Shown: positions 1 to 7,808 of the stretch, piece by piece
How the letters are laid out: every line of letters starts with the position of its first letter
How positions within the stretch are numbered: position 1 is the first letter of the stretch
Assembly: GCA_013824585.1 (NCBI GenBank)
Contig: PNOB01000004.1
Location: 1-35,349 of the forward strand
Source of the DNA: Desulfobacterium sp.
Lineage (GTDB): Bacteria; Desulfobacterota; Desulfobacteria; Desulfobacterales; SURF-7
Direction of reading: 5' to 3'
DNA length: 35,349 nucleotides
The notes under the pieces: model-generated
Seen by the model: only the letters and a program-made list of their open reading frames with translations
What the model was told of the DNA's origin: nothing
Databases searched by the model: none
Position numbers and translations under genes: made by a program

Positions 1-1029
1 GATGCTGCGCTTGTAAATGTTCCATTGATTCTTGAATTAGCTCTCAATCAGGGCAAAAGGTTTGGTTCCCGATTCAGGTCCGGGGCTAAAAGTATGCCGG
101 TCAAAAAAATGAAGTCCATGGATGATGTCAAAACCGCTTTTGAGGTTCAGCTTGCAGACCAGTTATCCCGGTTGATGAAAGATCTTCAAGCCATTGAAAT
201 TGCAAATCGAAAATACCATCCGACCCCTCTTTCAAGCTGCCTCCTGGACGGATGTCTTGAAAGCGGCATCTGCTCAACAGCAGGAGGCGCTCGCTATAAT
301 TTTTCCGGTATCCAGTGTGTGGCCCCTGCAGATACCGGCGATTCCCTTTATGCCATTGAAAAATCGGTATTTATGGATAAGAAAATTACGCTCCCTGCTC
401 TGGTGGAACAACTTATCCAGAATCTGCCGGACAAGCAACTCCGGGCTTATTTAAGAGGGATTGAAAAATTCGGCAATGATCATTCTGATGCGGATAAATG
501 GACGGTTTATGTGATTGATAAGTTTACCGATGAATTGAACCGATATCAAAATACCCGCGGCGGCCGTTATGTTACGGGCCTCTACTCGGTTACTTTACAT
601 GAATACTACGGAAGAATAACAGGTGCTCTTCCAAACGGCAGGAAAATGGGAGAGAGCTTTGCTTCAGGAATTTCTCCCTCCAATGGAATGGACAGGCTTG
701 GCCCGACAGCGCTCATCAATTCGATCAATCGAATCGATTTTACCAAAACCGCCAATGGAATCAACTTTAACCTGAAATTTGACAGCCAGACACTCCGGGG
801 ATCAACCGGTAAGCTTGCATTAAAAAACCTATTGTCAACCTATTTCAGAAAAGGAGGCATGCAGGCCCAGGTGAATGTCCTGGACCCAGCCATATTACTT
901 GCTGCAAAGGAAAATCCGGATCTGTATCCCAATCTTCTTGTCCGGGTTTCCGGTTATTCAGCCTATTTCAACGATCTTTCACCGAAAATGAAGGATGAAA
1001 TTATCCAGAGAAGCTGTCTTAAAAACTGA
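1..1029 (+). CDS. Glycyl radical enzyme (pyruvate formate-lyase-like family), C-terminal part; 5' end lies outside the window
   Basis: Frame is open from base 1 (DAALVNVPLILELALNQG...). Contains GGARYNFSGIQ...DSLYAI and the C-terminal glycyl radical motif RVSGYSAYF (Gly codon 952-954). Confidence 0.9.
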   Translation, partial: DAALVNVPLILELALNQGKRFGSRFRSGAKSMPVKKMKSMDDVKTAFEVQLADQLSRLMKDLQAIEIANRKYHPTPLSSCLLDGCLESGICSTAGGARYNFSGIQCVAPADTGDSLYAIEKSVFMDKKITLPALVEQLIQNLPDKQLRAYLRGIEKFGNDHSDADKWTVYVIDKFTDELNRYQNTRGGRYVTGLYSVTLHEYYGRITGALPNGRKMGESFASGISPSNGMDRLGPTALINSINRIDFTKTANGINFNLKFDSQTLRGSTGKLALKNLLSTYFRKGGMQAQVNVLDPAILLAAKENPDLYPNLLVRVSGYSAYFNDLSPKMKDEIIQRSCLKN

Positions 1030-2125
1030 CCGGTGAATGTTTCATCCCAAAAGCATTGGCAACCTCTTCACAGGTTAACTGCCCCTTGTAAACATTCAGG
1101 CCCTGTTCCAAAGCTGAATTTTCCTTCAGGGCTTTTTTCAAACCTTTATTCGCCAATTCCAGAACATATGAGAGAGTTGCATTGGTCAATGCATAGGTTG
1201 ATGTACGCGGTACAGCACCCGGCATATTGGCAACACAATAATGCACGATGTTATCAACAATATACATTGGATCATCATGGGTTGTGGGTTTGCTCGTTTC
1301 TGCGCATCCTCCCTGATCAATAGCAATATCAACCAATGCCGAACCGGGTTCCATGCCTTTAAGATAGTCTTTTTTGATCAGTTTGGGTGCTTTTGCTCCA
1401 GGTATCAATACCGCACCGATCACCAGATCTGCATTGAGAATACTTCGCTCCAGATTAACGGGATTTGACATCAATGTCACTGCTTGTGAATAAAAAAGAT
1501 GGTCTAGGTAGCGGAGTCTTTCCTGATTAATATCGAGAATGGTAACCCTGGCACCCATGCCAATGGCAACCTGTGCTGCATTAATCCCGGATATCCCTCC
1601 TCCGACAATGGTTACACGGGCAGGAGCAACACCCGGAACTCCGGATACAAGAAGTCCCTTTCCTCCATTTTTGGCTTCCAGACAGGCGCAACCCATTTGA
1701 ACAGAAAGCCTTCCGGCTACCGCACTCATGGGCGCAAGCAAGGGAAGAGATCCATTTTCAAGCTGAATGGTTTCATATGCGACTCCGATCACCTTTCGAT
1801 CCAGCAATACCTGGGTCAGTTTCTGATCCGCCGCAAGATGTAAAAATGTAAATAGAATCTGGCCTTCCTTCATCAAACCGAATTCCGGTTCAAGCGGTTC
1901 TTTCACCTTAATAATCAAGTCCGCTTCCGCCCAAACAGCATCCGGAGTATGTAGAATTCGGGCACCGGTTCGTACATACTCCTGATCGATAATTCCAGAA
2001 CCGTCGCCAGCCCCTTTTTCCACATAAACCGAATGCCCGCACTCTACAAGAGCCGCAACCCCGGCTGGTGTTAATGAAACCCTATTCTCCTTGACTTTTA
2101 TCTCTTTTGGAACCCCGATTTTCAT
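1019..2125 (-). CDS. ald: Alanine dehydrogenase
   Basis: [24 protein letters not shown]-terminus and a Rossmann region [28 protein letters not shown]; 368 aa. Confidence 0.93.
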
Positions 2126-2173
2126 GGTAAATTACCTCCTGGATCAAAAATGTGATAATGTCTACTTGCTTAT

Positions 2174-2881
2174 TTATTTCCCCGCCTTTGGATGTGAAGA
2201 AAGTGCATTTCTGATAAAATGCATCATTCCCTGAATGATTTTTTCATCATGGTCGTTAACTTCTTCACCGACGAATATCTTCATTCTCTCCCGAAAATAA
2301 TCGGTTGTATAAGAGTACTGTAATAAAAGGATCAAGTTATCCAAACAAAAGGAGGCAACATACTCATCAATTTCAGGATCAACGATTCCTGATTTTTTTG
2401 ATTCTGAGAGCATGGAACGATAAAACAGTGCAGAGATCGTTTCCATCTTGCGGGAAAGCAATATTGAAAGATGTGATAGCCCTTGGGAAGTAATATCAAG
2501 ATAGATCTGATTTAACTCCGGATATTTCTTTGTGTACTTCTGGGCAGCCCGTAAGAGTCTTTCAATTTTATCAAAAATATCCCCTTTTTCAAGATCGATT
2601 TCAGAAATTACCTTTTCAAGAACCTGATAACCGTAATCCATAACAGTCAAAAACAGGTCTTCCTTGGAATTGAAATAATTGTACATGGACCCGATACTGA
2701 CCCCTGCCTTTTTTGCAATAACATTGATATTCGCAGCTTTGAGTCCATGCTTTGCAAATTCCGAAACAGCCACAGTTTGGATTTTCTCCCGCTTTTCCGG
2801 AGAGATCTTTTGAAAAGCCTCTTTAAAGTGTTTAAGCTGTGTATATCCATCTTTTTGATCTATCTTATATCTATTTTTCAT
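2174..2881 (-). CDS. TetR/AcrR family transcriptional regulator
   Basis: N-terminal HTH: AVSEFAKHGLKAANINVIAKKAGVSIGSMYNYFNSKEDLF. Confidence 0.92.
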   Translation of the reverse strand: MKNRYKIDQKDGYTQLKHFKEAFQKISPEKREKIQTVAVSEFAKHGLKAANINVIAKKAGVSIGSMYNYFNSKEDLFLTVMDYGYQVLEKVISEIDLEKGDIFDKIERLLRAAQKYTKKYPELNQIYLDITSQGLSHLSILLSRKMETISALFYRSMLSESKKSGIVDPEIDEYVASFCLDNLILLLQYSYTTDYFRERMKIFVGEEVNDHDEKIIQGMMHFIRNALSSHPKAGK

Positions 2882-2935
2882 AAAACAAATTCCACTTGAC
2901 TTTTATACTCTGTTTTGTTTTAGTAAAAAAAATTA

Positions 2936-2951
2936 GAGTGAGTTATCACTC
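2936..2951. promoter_or_regulatory. Candidate operator palindrome GAGTGA-gtta-TCACTC between divergent tetR and SCP2-like genes
   Basis: Perfect 6-bp inverted arms with a 4-nt centre in the divergent intergenic region of the TetR gene. Confidence 0.4.
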
Positions 2952-3001
2952 ATTTTTTATGATAGCATATTTTTTCCCCCCAGACAATAGGAGGATTTTT
3001 C

Positions 3002-3763
3002 ATGGGTCATGAACTGATTAAAGCCCGACTCAACCTCTATGCTGTAATGAAAAACCTTGAAGATCTCGTGCAATTTGATCCGGAAATGGCCGCTCTATCA
3101 AAAACGTGGAATGTGTCCATACAGTTTTCCGTACTATTCGGGCCAAAGGCATTTATCGAGTTTCAAAACGGAAGATGCCGGGTAGAAAAAGGCAAGCTTT
3201 CCAAACCCACCATCAGGCTGTTTTTTATCTCTCCTGCACATTTAAACTGGATGATGGATGGCAAGGGATTTCCCATTCCCTTAAAAGGATTTACAAAAAT
3301 ACCATTCCTGAACGGCGATTTTCAAAAACTGACTAAGAAACTGGAATACTACCTTAAGCCGACAGATGATCTCCTGAAGGATGAAAAATACGTTGAACTC
3401 AATACCCGATTCACATTAAACACGGCTGCCCATGCCATTCCGGAAATTGGAAACCTGGATCGGATCGGCAAACATGCTGTCTCTCATATCCAGACCGGTG
3501 ATATTCTCATGAAGATTTTGCCGGATGGACCAGCCGTAACCTTACGGGTTCGAAACGGAATCATAACCCCCCTTCCAGAAGAGACAGACAGGCCCATGGC
3601 GTGCCTGTATATGAAAAACATACGGGTTGCAAACGATTTCCTGAATGCAAAACTGGATGCATTCACGGCGATAGCATCCGGTGATGTGATGATTAAAGGT
3701 CAAACCCCCATGCTGGATTCCATGGGTCTGATATTGGACAGAATCCCGGTCTATCTGGGGTAA
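3002..3763 (+). CDS. SCP2-like (sterol carrier/lipid-binding domain) protein
   Basis: Strong RBS (aggagg). Layout SIQFSVLFGPKAFIEFQNGRCRVEKGKLSKPTIRLFFISPAHLNWMMDGKG resembles SCP2 domains. Confidence 0.55.
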   Translation: MGHELIKARLNLYAVMKNLEDLVQFDPEMAALSKTWNVSIQFSVLFGPKAFIEFQNGRCRVEKGKLSKPTIRLFFISPAHLNWMMDGKGFPIPLKGFTKIPFLNGDFQKLTKKLEYYLKPTDDLLKDEKYVELNTRFTLNTAAHAIPEIGNLDRIGKHAVSHIQTGDILMKILPDGPAVTLRVRNGIITPLPEETDRPMACLYMKNIRVANDFLNAKLDAFTAIASGDVMIKGQTPMLDSMGLILDRIPVYLG

Positions 3764-3815
3764 GCATTGAACAGATGATAAAGGCTGTCTATCCGTAACA
3801 ATGAAGGAATTGCAT

Positions 3816-5066
3816 ATGAAATCATACCAATATTCAAAATCACAGGAACTGTTTAAACGAGCCGCAAAGGTTATTCCCTGCGGTATTTACGGGCATTTCA
3901 GTCCTGCCCCTCTTGTGCCCGCAACATCCTATCCATTTTATACAGCAAGATCTGCTGGTGCCAGATTCTGGGATGTGGATGGAAATGAGTTTATTGATTA
4001 CATGTGTGCTTACGGCCCCATGATTTTAGGATATAACCATCCAAATGTTGATCAGGCTGCTGCAAACCAAATCAAGTTATCCAATTGTACCACCGGTGCA
4101 CCCAGCGTCATGGTTGAACTGGCTGAGTTCATGGTGGACTTGATTCCAGCAGCAGACTGGGTGTTTTTTGCAAAAAACGGTGCTGATGTGACCAACTATT
4201 CAACCATGATTGCCCGGGATGCGACTGGAAGGAAAAAAATTGTTATGATCAAAGGCGCCTACCATGGAGCTTCCTCATGGATGCAGGCGCCGGGCCATCA
4301 TGGGACAATTGAAGAAGATGCTGAGAATATCATCCGTGTGCCTTGGAATGATGTTTCCGCATTTGAAAAAGCAATCGAGAACAATCCAGACGATATCGCC
4401 GGTTTTATTGCAACCCCTTATCATGTTCCAGCGTTTGCAGACAATGAACTGCCGGATGAAGGATATTGGAAAAAAATAGAATCCCTTTGCAGAAAAAATG
4501 GGATTGTTCTCATTGTCGATGACATACGTCACGGTTTTAGATTGAATATGGGAGGCTCCTGCAAATATTTCGGATTTACACCGGATCTGATATGCTTCTG
4601 CAAAGCCCTTGCAAACGGATACCCGATTTCCGCACTCATGGGGAGCCAAGCACTCAAAGATGTCACGGCACGGGTTTTTTACACCGGAAGCTATTGGTTC
4701 CAGGCAGAACCCATGGCTGCCGCCCTTGAAACCCTGAAAGAGCTGAAACGGATGGATGGCCCAAAAACAATATTATCCATTGGCAAAAAACTTTTAGATG
4801 GACTGGTTGATATGGCTAAAGGTTATGGGTATGATTTAAAGGTAACAGGCGCTCCCTCCATGCCCTACTTGAGAATCACCAATGATGAAAGCCTGATGCT
4901 TCACCAGGACTGGTGTGCTGAATGCACCCGACGAGGGGCCTACTTTACATCTCATCACAACTGGTTTCTTTCAACAGCCCATACAGATGAGGATATTCAG
5001 CAAACATTTACAATTGCAGATGATGCATTTCAATCCATCAAAAAGCAATATGGTAATCGATTTTAG
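3816..5066 (+). CDS. PLP-dependent class III aminotransferase (glutamate-1-semialdehyde aminomutase-like)
   Basis: GSA/class III layout: DGNEFIDYMCAYGPMILGYNHP, IKGAYHGASSWM, LIVDDIRHGFRL, FCKALANGYPISALMG (PLP Lys). ATG 3816 has a nearby AAGGA; ATG 3801 is an alternative start. Confidence 0.85.
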   Translation: MKSYQYSKSQELFKRAAKVIPCGIYGHFSPAPLVPATSYPFYTARSAGARFWDVDGNEFIDYMCAYGPMILGYNHPNVDQAAANQIKLSNCTTGAPSVMVELAEFMVDLIPAADWVFFAKNGADVTNYSTMIARDATGRKKIVMIKGAYHGASSWMQAPGHHGTIEEDAENIIRVPWNDVSAFEKAIENNPDDIAGFIATPYHVPAFADNELPDEGYWKKIESLCRKNGIVLIVDDIRHGFRLNMGGSCKYFGFTPDLICFCKALANGYPISALMGSQALKDVTARVFYTGSYWFQAEPMAAALETLKELKRMDGPKTILSIGKKLLDGLVDMAKGYGYDLKVTGAPSMPYLRITNDESLMLHQDWCAECTRRGAYFTSHHNWFLSTAHTDEDIQQTFTIADDAFQSIKKQYGNRF

Positions 5067-5127
5067 CACAAAGGGTAAAACAAAACGCAGCAAACACGAT
5101 AAAAATCCAGCACAACAGGAGGAGAAA

Positions 5128-5985
5128 ATGCCGGTTACAGATCAGGAAATCAAAGTATTACATGAAAAGGCATGCCAGTTACGGAAGGATATTATCGATA
5201 TCACTTACTGGGCCGGTGGGGCTCATATCGGTGGCGCCATGAGCATGGTTGAAATACTGATCCTTCTCTACTACAAGTATATGAAAATTGACCCAAAAAA
5301 TCCGACCTGGAAGGAGAGAGACCGGATGGTTCTGAGTAAAGGCCATGGCGGTGTGGGGTATGCCCCGCTGCTTGCCCGAAAAGGATATTTTGATTTTCAA
5401 GATCTGAAAGAATTCAACAAATTCAAGTCTCCATTTGGAATGCACCTGGACAGCCTGAAAGTGAAAGGCGTGGATGTTTCCACCGGCTCACTGGGTCATG
5501 GCCTTCCCATGGCAGTCGGGATGTCATTAGGAGCCAGGGTACAAAAACAGTCCTGGCTCACATACTGTATTTTAGGTGATGGCGAATGCAATGAAGGCTC
5601 GATCTGGGAAGCAGCCATGGCCGCCTCCCATTTTAAGCTGACCAACCTGATAACCTTTGTTGACCGGAATAGACTGATGATCGATGGAACAACAGAAGAG
5701 ATCATGGGACTTGAACCTTTTGTTGATAAATGGAAAGCGTTTGGTTTTGTTGTTAAGGAAGTGGATGGCCACAATTTCACCGCTCTTGCAGATGCAATCG
5801 AATCCGCCCAAAAAGAAACCAAAGCTCCGGTTGTCATCATCGCAAACACATTTAAGGGCAAGGGCGTTGACTTTATGGAAAACAATGTAAAGTGGCATTA
5901 CGGAGGTCTGGATACAGATCTGGTTGAAAAAGCAAAGGCATCTGTAGACCGAATGTATGAACAGGCGATTAACCTCAAAAAATAG
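5128..5985 (+). CDS. Transketolase, N-terminal (TPP-binding) subunit
   Basis: LSKGHGGVGYAPLL, GSLGHGLPMAVGMSLGA, LGDGECNEGSIWEAAM, DRNRLMIDGTTEEIM, KGKGVDFMENNVKWH; RBS aggagg before ATG 5128. Confidence 0.9.
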   Translation: MPVTDQEIKVLHEKACQLRKDIIDITYWAGGAHIGGAMSMVEILILLYYKYMKIDPKNPTWKERDRMVLSKGHGGVGYAPLLARKGYFDFQDLKEFNKFKSPFGMHLDSLKVKGVDVSTGSLGHGLPMAVGMSLGARVQKQSWLTYCILGDGECNEGSIWEAAMAASHFKLTNLITFVDRNRLMIDGTTEEIMGLEPFVDKWKAFGFVVKEVDGHNFTALADAIESAQKETKAPVVIIANTFKGKGVDFMENNVKWHYGGLDTDLVEKAKASVDRMYEQAINLKK

Positions 5986-6019
5986 TGACTTGTTTGACAA
6001 TAAAGAAGAGGAGGGCGCA

Positions 6020-7030
6020 ATGACAGAAGGCTTAACATGGACAGTCTATGATGCCGATACAATGACACAGTCAGAAATATATGGTGAAGTTCTTTGCCGG
6101 TTAGGAGAAGAAAACCCAAGAATTGTCGGTCTGTCGGCGGATCTGGCCAACTCCACAAAGATCGGAAAATTTGGCAAAAAATTCCCGGATCGTTTTTTTA
6201 ATGTTGGGATTGCCGAACAAAATCTTTTTGGTGTAGCCGCAGGTCTTGCCAAAACAGGTCTGATTCCCTTTGTCTCAACCATGGCAGCATTCACCGCCAT
6301 GAGGGGAGCGGAGCAAGTACGCACAGATATATGCTACCAGAACCTGAACTGTAAAATCATCGCCACCCATGCCGGCACCTCATTTGGCTCTGCCGGCACA
6401 ACCCACCATTGCACGGAAGATCTTGCAATCATGAGATCTTTCGCCAATATGACTGTGATTGCTCCGGCTGATGGAATTGAAACTGCAAAGGCTGTAAAAG
6501 CCTGTGTAGACTACCCTGGGCCAGTGTATATCCGCATTGGAAGAGGGTTTGAACCCAAATTTTATGAAAATGAGGAGTATGATTTTCAAATCGGAAAAGC
6601 GATTGAGGTGAACCCAGGTACGGATATTACCCTGATCTGCTGTGGCGTTACCGTACTACAGGCTGCTGAGGCTGCAAAATTTCTCAAAGAAAATGACGAC
6701 CTGAGTGTACGGGTGCTGAACATGCATACCATCAAACCACTGGATGAAGAAGCAGTGATGGCTGCTGTTACGGACACCAGAAGAATCATCACCTTTGAAG
6801 ATCATACGATTCTCGGGGGGCTTGGAAGCGCTGTTGCCGATGTAATCGCTGCAAGCGGCAAAGGCTGTGCCTTTTCCAAGGTTGGCATCCCTGACTGTTA
6901 CTGCATTGTAGGATATCCGGAAGATCTTTGCAGCCACTACAAGCTGGATACCGATGGAATCATTGACAAGGTTCGGGAAGTCATGAAAATGGATTTTGAA
7001 GAGGCTGATGACTGGGAAGATGAGGTATAA
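6020..7030 (+). CDS. Transketolase, C-terminal (pyrimidine-binding) subunit
   Basis: FFNVGIAEQNLFGVAAGLAKTG, NLNCKIIATHAG, MTVIAPAD, VYIRIGRG; RBS gaggagg before ATG 6020. Confidence 0.9.
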   Translation: MTEGLTWTVYDADTMTQSEIYGEVLCRLGEENPRIVGLSADLANSTKIGKFGKKFPDRFFNVGIAEQNLFGVAAGLAKTGLIPFVSTMAAFTAMRGAEQVRTDICYQNLNCKIIATHAGTSFGSAGTTHHCTEDLAIMRSFANMTVIAPADGIETAKAVKACVDYPGPVYIRIGRGFEPKFYENEEYDFQIGKAIEVNPGTDITLICCGVTVLQAAEAAKFLKENDDLSVRVLNMHTIKPLDEEAVMAAVTDTRRIITFEDHTILGGLGSAVADVIAASGKGCAFSKVGIPDCYCIVGYPEDLCSHYKLDTDGIIDKVREVMKMDFEEADDWEDEV

Positions 7031-7031
7031 C

Positions 7032-7808
7032 ATGGCTACTGAAAGAGATCTGCTGACCGCACGATTGTTTTTACGGGCGCTGTTTCCGGTGATGAAGGTT
7101 GTTCTTTCCGATGTTCCAAAAATGAAAAACCGTTTTAAGGATGTTACTGCAAAAATACAATTTGCAGCTCAAAACAGCGCGGGAGAAGTGGGTGCATATC
7201 TTGATTTTCAACAAGGGAACTTAGATATTGTTCAGGGGATCTGCTCGAATCCTGATATCTGTTTCGGGTTCGGCAGTGTAAAAAAAATGAACGATATGCT
7301 GGCTGGAAAACCGGTAATACCCAAAATTAAAGGCTTTCTGAAACTCGGGCTTTTAATCAAAATGTTCAGTCTTCTCCTGAGTCTGAAAATCCTGATGCCC
7401 AATGTAAGACCAACTGCCGATGATAAAAAACGGCTGAAGATCAAAATGACCATTTACATGATTACCACTGCACTCAGCCAGTATAATAAAGGTGGTGATC
7501 CGGAAATGATGCGCTGGACATCCAAACAGCCGGAGCGGATTTACCAAATGTCTGTCGATCATGAAGAAATCGCAGCATATCTCCGGGTAAAGGCGGGTAA
7601 AACAAAAGCCGGAAGAGGGTTTTACAAGCGCAGACGTCCCTTTGTGCATATGCGATTCAATGGGATTGACGGCGCGCTTCCGGTTATCCTGAATGAAGTG
7701 GATATGGTGACAGCAGTGAAAAACGAATATCTCCGTGTAGAAGGATCACCGGAATATGGACGCGATATCGGGGATTTCATGATGCGGATTCAGAATATGA
7801 TTACCTAA
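7032..7808 (+). CDS. Second SCP2-like lipid-binding domain protein
   Basis: ATG 7032 directly follows the transketolase C stop. AKIQFAAQN..GAYLDFQQGNLDIVQGICSNPDICFGFGSVKKMNDMLAGK is SCP2-like in layout. Confidence 0.55.
   Translation: MATERDLLTARLFLRALFPVMKVVLSDVPKMKNRFKDVTAKIQFAAQNSAGEVGAYLDFQQGNLDIVQGICSNPDICFGFGSVKKMNDMLAGKPVIPKIKGFLKLGLLIKMFSLLLSLKILMPNVRPTADDKKRLKIKMTIYMITTALSQYNKGGDPEMMRWTSKQPERIYQMSVDHEEIAAYLRVKAGKTKAGRGFYKRRRPFVHMRFNGIDGALPVILNEVDMVTAVKNEYLRVEGSPEYGRDIGDFMMRIQNMIT

Follow-up and report, generated by a model that had tools for sequence, protein, structure and literature searches.

A proposed operon for anaerobic sphingoid-base catabolism, with a FumI-like aminotransferase and a split transketolase, in Desulfobacterium and other anaerobes

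Main finding and proposed pathway

The stretch of DNA analysed here (the window) comprises the 35,349 nucleotides at positions 1 to 35,349 of contig PNOB01000004.1 from Desulfobacterium sp. (GenBank assembly GCA_013824585.1). Near its start, genes for an alanine dehydrogenase (Ald) and a TetR-family regulator are divergent from five plus-strand genes: a tandem SCP2 protein (SCPa), a class III aminotransferase (AT), the two halves of a split transketolase (TkN and TkC) and a second tandem SCP2 protein (SCPb). It is likely, though by no means certain, that this operon equips anaerobes to catabolise (or detoxify) sphingoid bases derived from ceramide. The reading draws on gene content, conservation, kinship of AT to the fumonisin-catabolic enzyme FumI, active-site changes, a shared operator and gene co-occurrence, all read from sequences, as well as on predicted SCP2 folds. 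Somewhat more tentatively, with the balance only slightly in favour, the system is taken to represent a lipid-directed transketolase pathway, not described before, that needs neither oxygen nor phosphorylation and feeds the head group into the pentose-phosphate pool; it would be widespread among anaerobes from several phyla, some of them with a dedicated TetR/ceramidase regulon.

In the proposed route, ceramide would first be split into fatty acid and sphingoid base by a secreted neutral ceramidase whose gene lies at another place in the genome, and the base would enter the cell through a FadL-type porin and an MFS carrier, likewise encoded elsewhere. SCPa would hand the base to the FumI-like AT, which would transfer the C2 amino group to pyruvate, yielding a 1,3-dihydroxy-2-ketone and alanine; Ald would then convert the alanine to pyruvate, NH4+ and NADH. 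The split transketolase, together with SCPb, would cut the C2-C3 bond to give a fatty aldehyde, moving the C2 ketol to a sugar-phosphate aldehyde to form a ketose phosphate. The fatty aldehyde would be oxidised and passed to beta-oxidation, the SCP2 proteins would handle the insoluble intermediates, and TetR, acting on the palindrome GAGTGA-N4-TCACTC, would co-regulate the operon, the ceramidase and uptake. Each catalytic step, the order of the steps and the exact substrate are what we infer. The initial annotation had already linked a 2-amino-1,3-diol, a 1,3-dihydroxy-2-ketone and an aldehyde plus C2 ketol through this chemistry, and had guessed at a hydrophobic substrate and a role for alanine dehydrogenase; all three ideas gained support. 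Its headline direction, biosynthesis independent of serine palmitoyltransferase (SPT), found no such support, and the reverse, catabolic route that it had named as an alternative is favoured instead, because the same operator also stands at a secreted ceramidase gene and at a FadL/MFS uptake operon and because the ceramidase co-occurs with the operon across the order.

A shared operator and the TetR regulator

Comparison of promoter regions brought out the palindrome GAGTGA-N4-TCACTC. Exact sites number three in the 4.16-Mb host genome, against none for the reversed control pattern; three or more in one genome would be expected at the control rate with P about 9e-6. The operon promoter holds one of them (GAGTGA-GTTA-TCACTC), which spans 2936-2951 in the gap separating TetR from SCPa. 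A second lies 120 bp upstream of the ceramidase gene, and the third upstream of an operon encoding an exported protein, an MFS carrier, a FadL-type outer-membrane protein and a phosphoesterase. The latter operon and its site are conserved in another genome of the same genus (G554). Across 184 genomes of the order, the true pattern gave 23 sites and the control pattern 7, and by our own count 15 of the 23 are accounted for by the operon, ceramidase and MFS/FadL loci. Since the pattern was derived from the source promoters, its presence there is not independent evidence; the independent points are its rarity elsewhere, the third host site and the counterpart of that site in G554.

The TetR gene itself (2174-2881, minus strand; Pfam TetR_N) has orthologues flanking the operon in other genomes at 50-86% identity. 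In genome G538, a TetR 60% identical to that of the window is divergent from a ceramidase gene, with the operator present; this regulator falls within the orthologous group, clearly apart from other TetRs, and no SCPb was found in that genome. Genome G569 carries one site at the operon and another at the ceramidase. The shared exact operator and the placement of the G538 regulator argue for co-regulation with a ceramide hydrolase, and the operon is probably switched on together with the secreted enzyme. TetR is proposed to be a sphingoid-base sensor, both its ligand and its binding to the palindrome being presumed. At another locus (L216, G423:C243, 4694-8253), an orthologous TetR (60%) with two exact operators is divergent from a 412-residue protein resembling fold-III pyridoxal phosphate (PLP) enzymes and from a flavin adenine dinucleotide-type oxidoreductase, both assigned by eye; this may be a replacement pathway under the same regulator.

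The ceramidase and its co-occurrence with the operon

A search with PF04734 returned a full-length ceramidase in the host genome (E 1.7e-167), which matches the neutral ceramidase of Pseudomonas aeruginosa (PDB 2zws) at E 3e-155. The motifs HTHSGPGG, FAQTNAG, APxExTxMAG and SYxTTREEY are conserved and, read by eye, an apparent signal peptide is present; the enzyme is thus predicted to be a secreted neutral ceramidase of the canonical type. Order-wide, a ceramidase was found in 10 of the 22 genomes that carry SCPb and in 6 of the 162 that lack it (P 4e-7). In the phylum sample, 8 of 13 operon genomes carried one, compared with 11 of 382 others, or 5 and 3 when only strong matches were counted. 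Ceramidase counts in Hydrogenedentota are uninformative because of the many weak paralogues there.

Several ceramidase neighbourhoods have features of their own. In L161 (G030:C8, 3357-14319), the ceramidase is accompanied by a TetR, an FGGY kinase, another class III aminotransferase, a RuBisCO-like protein, an unknown protein, a class II aldolase and an MFS carrier, the last being 52% identical to the regulon MFS. Perhaps this locus encodes a second sphingoid-base route via kinase and aldolase, with the phytosphingosine ketone handled as a ketose. An FGGY kinase, a GlpD-like oxidase, a RuBisCO-like protein and a similar unknown protein stand beside SCPa-AT in G067 (L042). In L155 (2659-4120), L184 and L185, two membrane proteins, one Lgt-like and one Rce1-like (CAAX protease family), form a conserved pair after the ceramidase.

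The FumI-like aminotransferase and alanine dehydrogenase

AT (3801-5066, plus strand; Aminotran_3; PLP lysine Lys268) has as its best solved relative FumI, the 'aminopentol aminotransferase' (PDB 6hbs/6hbv; E 2e-98; 39.5% identity). The next family, the glutamate-1-semialdehyde aminomutases, follows at E 6e-54, a gap of 146 bits. In a tree, FumI groups with the operon family on a long branch, apart from two other class III sequences, and by sequence comparison AT is nearer to FumI than to the aminomutases or other class III families. We know of no transketolase or SCP2 protein in the FumI cluster. FumI acts on hydrolysed fumonisin B1 (HFB1), a sphingoid-base analogue, transferring the C2 amine in an oxygen-independent reaction in which HFB1 and pyruvate give 2-keto-HFB1 and alanine (PMC2933618).

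Such pyruvate-to-alanine traffic at a FumI-like AT would leave an obvious job for Ald (1019-2125, minus strand; AlaDh_PNT; TIGR00518, 523 bits against a cut-off of 392). Ald lies within a same-strand operon TetR-Ald-SCPa-AT-TkN-TkC-SCPb in Desulfatibacillum-type genomes (L037/L038), directly 5' of SCPa in G476 and next to SCPa in L171. Because it sits inside the operon in relatives, the idea that Ald is a chance neighbour was rejected.

The split transketolase

TkN (5128-5985, plus strand; Transketolase_N), the half that binds thiamine diphosphate (ThDP), and TkC (6020-7030, plus strand; Transket_pyr and Transketolase_C), the pyrimidine-binding and C-terminal half, have the split transketolase of Carboxydothermus as their closest solved relative (best matches PDB 6yak, N-chain, E 2e-77, and 6yaj, E 6e-79, respectively). 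Cofactor and catalytic residues are kept, namely the equivalents of Glu366, His37, Lys75, His77, His110 and His258 in human numbering. Two specificity positions are altered. The position of human Asp424 (E. coli Asp469), the residue that reads the acceptor α-hydroxyl, is Ala, once Gly, in all 27 of 27 family members, and that of human Arg318 (E. coli Arg358), a phosphate arm, is Ala, Ser or Thr in 23 of 26. Given these changes, TkN/TkC would retain the transketolase fold and chemistry but are not filed among the pentose-phosphate transketolases. Ser345, His416 and Arg474 are kept in the TkC family, and one sugar-phosphate partner is therefore still plausible. Substitution of D469 is part of an engineered E. 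coli transketolase series leading from phosphorylated to non-polar aldehydes (PMC5073344).

At least two further transketolases, one full-length and one split, are encoded in the host genome, so the operon enzyme is not needed for housekeeping; with the Asp lost as well, a housekeeping transketolase was discarded as a candidate. Beside human His37-Pro38, the sequence SGHP is replaced by G(A/G/S)H(I/V/A/L), a change conserved in the family that may bear on stereochemistry. The TkC family (6020-7030 in the window) further carries a conserved acidic C-terminal tail (EEDEDWEDE-like) that extends beyond the match to the Carboxydothermus chain.

The SCP2 proteins

SCPa (3002-3763, plus strand) and SCPb (7032-7808, plus strand) are homologous to each other, and their Pfam SCP2 scores are marginal (21.2 and 20.8 bits, just below the 21.3 cut-off). 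AlphaFold models built from family alignments reached pLDDT values of 94 for SCPa and 92 for SCPb, and Foldseek returned a probability of 1.0 to SCP2, UbiJ and the SCP2-bearing alkylsulfatase SdsA1. As modelled, each protein is two SCP2-type domains in tandem, judged from the order of secondary-structure elements, and the SCP2 calls of the initial annotation thus survived structural comparison. SCPa adjoins the aminotransferase in the Desulfobacterota loci examined and would act as a carrier of the hydrophobic substrate, while SCPb is tied to TkN-TkC. Elsewhere in the host genome, single-domain SCP2-like proteins lie beside aldehyde:ferredoxin oxidoreductase-like genes (L064, G000:C413, and L066, G000:C153).

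Conservation of the gene order

All seven genes of the system were recovered where they had first been placed, each backed by Pfam or, for the SCP2 proteins, by AlphaFold and Foldseek, with starts revised to 5128 for TkN, 6020 for TkC and 7032 for SCPb; those of TkN and TkC are preceded by clear purine-rich ribosome-binding sites. The phylum was searched with SCPa, and the neighbourhoods of the matches were then read. The order SCPa-AT-TkN-TkC-SCPb recurs in 17 loci (one genome counted twice) from isolates and metagenome-assembled genomes (MAGs) of at least five phyla, which is far beyond chance. It was seen in Desulfosarcina widdelii, Desulfatibacillum alkenivorans and Desulfoluna, and in MAGs labelled Spirochaetota, Hydrogenedentota, Myxococcota, Bacteroidales and Syntrophomonadaceae, the MAG assignments being the labels as given. 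Branching in the aminotransferase tree follows host phylum only in patches, a pattern suggestive of transfer between phyla.

The operon consists of two fixed modules, SCPa-AT (module A) and TkN-TkC-SCPb (module B), joined in many genomes. Among 395 Desulfobacterota genomes, module A occurs in 16, module B in 15 and both in 13 (Fisher P 8e-20), and in at least nine of the co-occurring genomes the modules lie on separate contigs. The operon usually has unrelated genes on either side, and clustering of flanking open reading frames for conserved extra enzymes recovered TetR alone. In L056/L057, Ald and an aldehyde:ferredoxin oxidoreductase are found in the vicinity of module B, which fits a route of cleavage to an aldehyde. 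Enoyl-CoA hydratases and a flavin mononucleotide (FMN) oxidoreductase of the OYE family recur weakly beside the operon. The latter was noted near the operon or the ceramidase TetR in L038 (1545), L072 (14910), L073 (6103) and L185 (7112), and might serve to reduce the 2-enal that cleavage of sphingosine should yield.

Points against and alternative explanations

Several observations weigh against sphingoid-base catabolism as set out above. No ceramidase was detected in 12 of the 22 operon genomes of the order, the close relative G554 included, and G232, G515 and G131 have module B but no FumI-like AT. The specificity of AT is unreadable at an identity to FumI of only 39.5%, and transfer of the FumI substrate to AT is uncertain. 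The Fisher tests count related genomes as independent. Ordinary transketolase products are 3S ketols, and natural D-erythro sphingoid bases, like their ketone, are 3R; TkN/TkC would have to use the other face or a threo base. Lastly, a Legionellales MAG (L116, 1-20092) holds SCPa and AT together with a reducing polyketide synthase (PKS) fragment, an alpha-oxoamine-synthase-like enzyme, a P450, a lipid A-type acyltransferase, a short-chain dehydrogenase/reductase, an ABC exporter and glycosyltransferases (partial versions in L109 and L112). This candidate sphingoid-like glycolipid cluster appears biosynthetic, and the SCPa-AT pair alone therefore does not fix direction.

The same catabolic logic could instead serve another long-chain amino alcohol, such as a 1-deoxy or threo base, a fumonisin-type toxin or a bacterial sphingoid analogue. 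Threo bases suit transketolase stereochemistry, and the characterised substrate of FumI is hydrolysed fumonisin. However, the co-regulated hydrolase resembles a canonical neutral ceramidase and not a fumonisin esterase, and ordinary sphingolipids are far commoner, which leaves this explanation improbable but worth keeping in view.

SPT-independent biosynthesis would run the same enzymes in reverse: a fatty aldehyde would gain a C2 ketol, and the product would be transaminated, with alanine from Ald, to a 2-amino-1,3-diol lipid. Its 3S product would suit ordinary transketolase stereochemistry, and the Legionellales cluster indicates that the SCPa-AT pair can serve lipid synthesis. Furthermore, a search for alpha-oxoamine synthases (E <= 1e-20) found no SPT-like enzyme in 6 of 11 operon genomes, D. 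alkenivorans included; unclassified matches occur in the other 5, one of them in the host, and none stood beside the operon in the neighbourhoods examined. As a principal explanation, biosynthesis was set back by the operator shared with the ceramidase and the FadL/MFS uptake operon. Ceramidase co-occurrence also speaks against it, as does the lack of recurring N-acyltransferase or head-group genes beside the five-gene operon in the loci examined, and we regard it as unlikely.

Detoxification instead of nutrition, with products that are merely non-toxic, finds a parallel in P. aeruginosa, where sphBC is required both to metabolise sphingosine and to grow in its presence (PMC11893366). The regulon, however, includes a ceramidase and a long-chain importer, which would take the base in, and recycling by Ald suggests flux; this explanation is considered very unlikely. 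An ordinary pentose-phosphate or sulfosugar transketolase next to an unrelated amino-acid aminotransferase is scarcely credible: TkN/TkC are clearly transketolase-like and one module-B locus (L053) has a four-carbon acid sugar kinase-like gene close by, but further transketolases are encoded in the genome, two SCP2 carriers are fixed partners, the Asp that reads the α-hydroxyl is lost, and both the FumI kinship of AT and the ceramidase regulon go unexplained. The sulfosugar, amino-sugar and hopanoid alternatives of the initial annotation drew no support from the neighbourhoods examined, where no sulfosugar genes were recognised in a comparison made without a SqwGH reference sequence. The neighbourhood scans listed open reading frames of at least 70 residues, a cut-off that a small amino-group carrier protein of the DADH (vazabitide-type) pathway could fall below.

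Relation to known systems and significance

The enzymes belong to known families, and sphingoid-base catabolism by the window operon would constitute a sphingolipid catabolic regulon with different chemistry. In eukaryotes, the sphingosine kinase/sphingosine 1-phosphate lyase route phosphorylates first and keeps the amine as phosphoethanolamine. Both routes break the C2-C3 bond of a sphingoid base to give a fatty aldehyde, whereas the window system is proposed to shed the amine at the outset and to transfer the C2 unit to a sugar phosphate. Synthetic transketolase-transaminase cascades to aminodiols follow the same two-enzyme logic; the window operon, in contrast, is natural and would probably run towards cleavage.

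FumI of Sphingopyxis sp. MTA144, from fumonisin catabolism (PDB 6hbs; PMC2933618), belongs to the same aminotransferase family and deaminates a 2-amino-3-hydroxy long-chain base at C2 without oxygen, while the window AT, at 39.5% identity, is proposed to be coupled to C-C cleavage and a ceramidase regulon. The SphR/SphBCD system of P. aeruginosa, with its neutral ceramidase, is likewise a sphingosine-linked regulon that includes a secreted neutral ceramidase (PMC11893366; PMC5150637). Its SphB is a cytochrome and its SphC is predicted to be a secreted FMN oxidoreductase, whereas the window system combines predicted cytoplasmic PLP and ThDP enzymes with a TetR regulator in anaerobic hosts; the product of P. 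aeruginosa sphingosine metabolism is still to be identified (PMC11893366). The split transketolase of Carboxydothermus hydrogenoformans (PDB 6yaj/6yak; PMC7661550) shares the split architecture and catalytic residues but retains the Arg318 and Asp424 equivalents, both changed in the window family, which has the acidic tail in addition. Engineered transketolases of the D469 lineage (PMC5073344) are changed at the same position, but are laboratory constructs and not part of a natural operon.

A literature search with most subscription journals outside its scope returned nothing on this gene combination or on a transketolase in sphingolipid metabolism, and nothing relevant on anaerobic sphingolipid degradation. 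Bacterial sphingoid-base breakdown is largely open, and the present analysis offers a concrete candidate route, regulator, operator and set of marker genes for anaerobes, including cultured sulfate reducers. If correct, it would describe the first natural transketolase acting on a lipid known to us, a natural counterpart of the biocatalytic transketolase-transaminase cascades, in which sphingoid bases are treated like ketoses after transamination. It could also provide a source of oxygen-independent enzymes for sphingoid-base or fumonisin detoxification, as well as an indicator of sphingolipid turnover in sediments and digesters.

Neighbouring gene

A glycyl radical enzyme from the PFL2/dehydratase group, not classified further, is represented at 25-1029 of the window by its C-terminal part. 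Its membership of the system was ruled out, as it lies tail-to-tail with Ald and was unrecognised at most operon loci. The full gene is present in a genome of the same genus (L203, 13936-17263), adjoining a probable activating enzyme.

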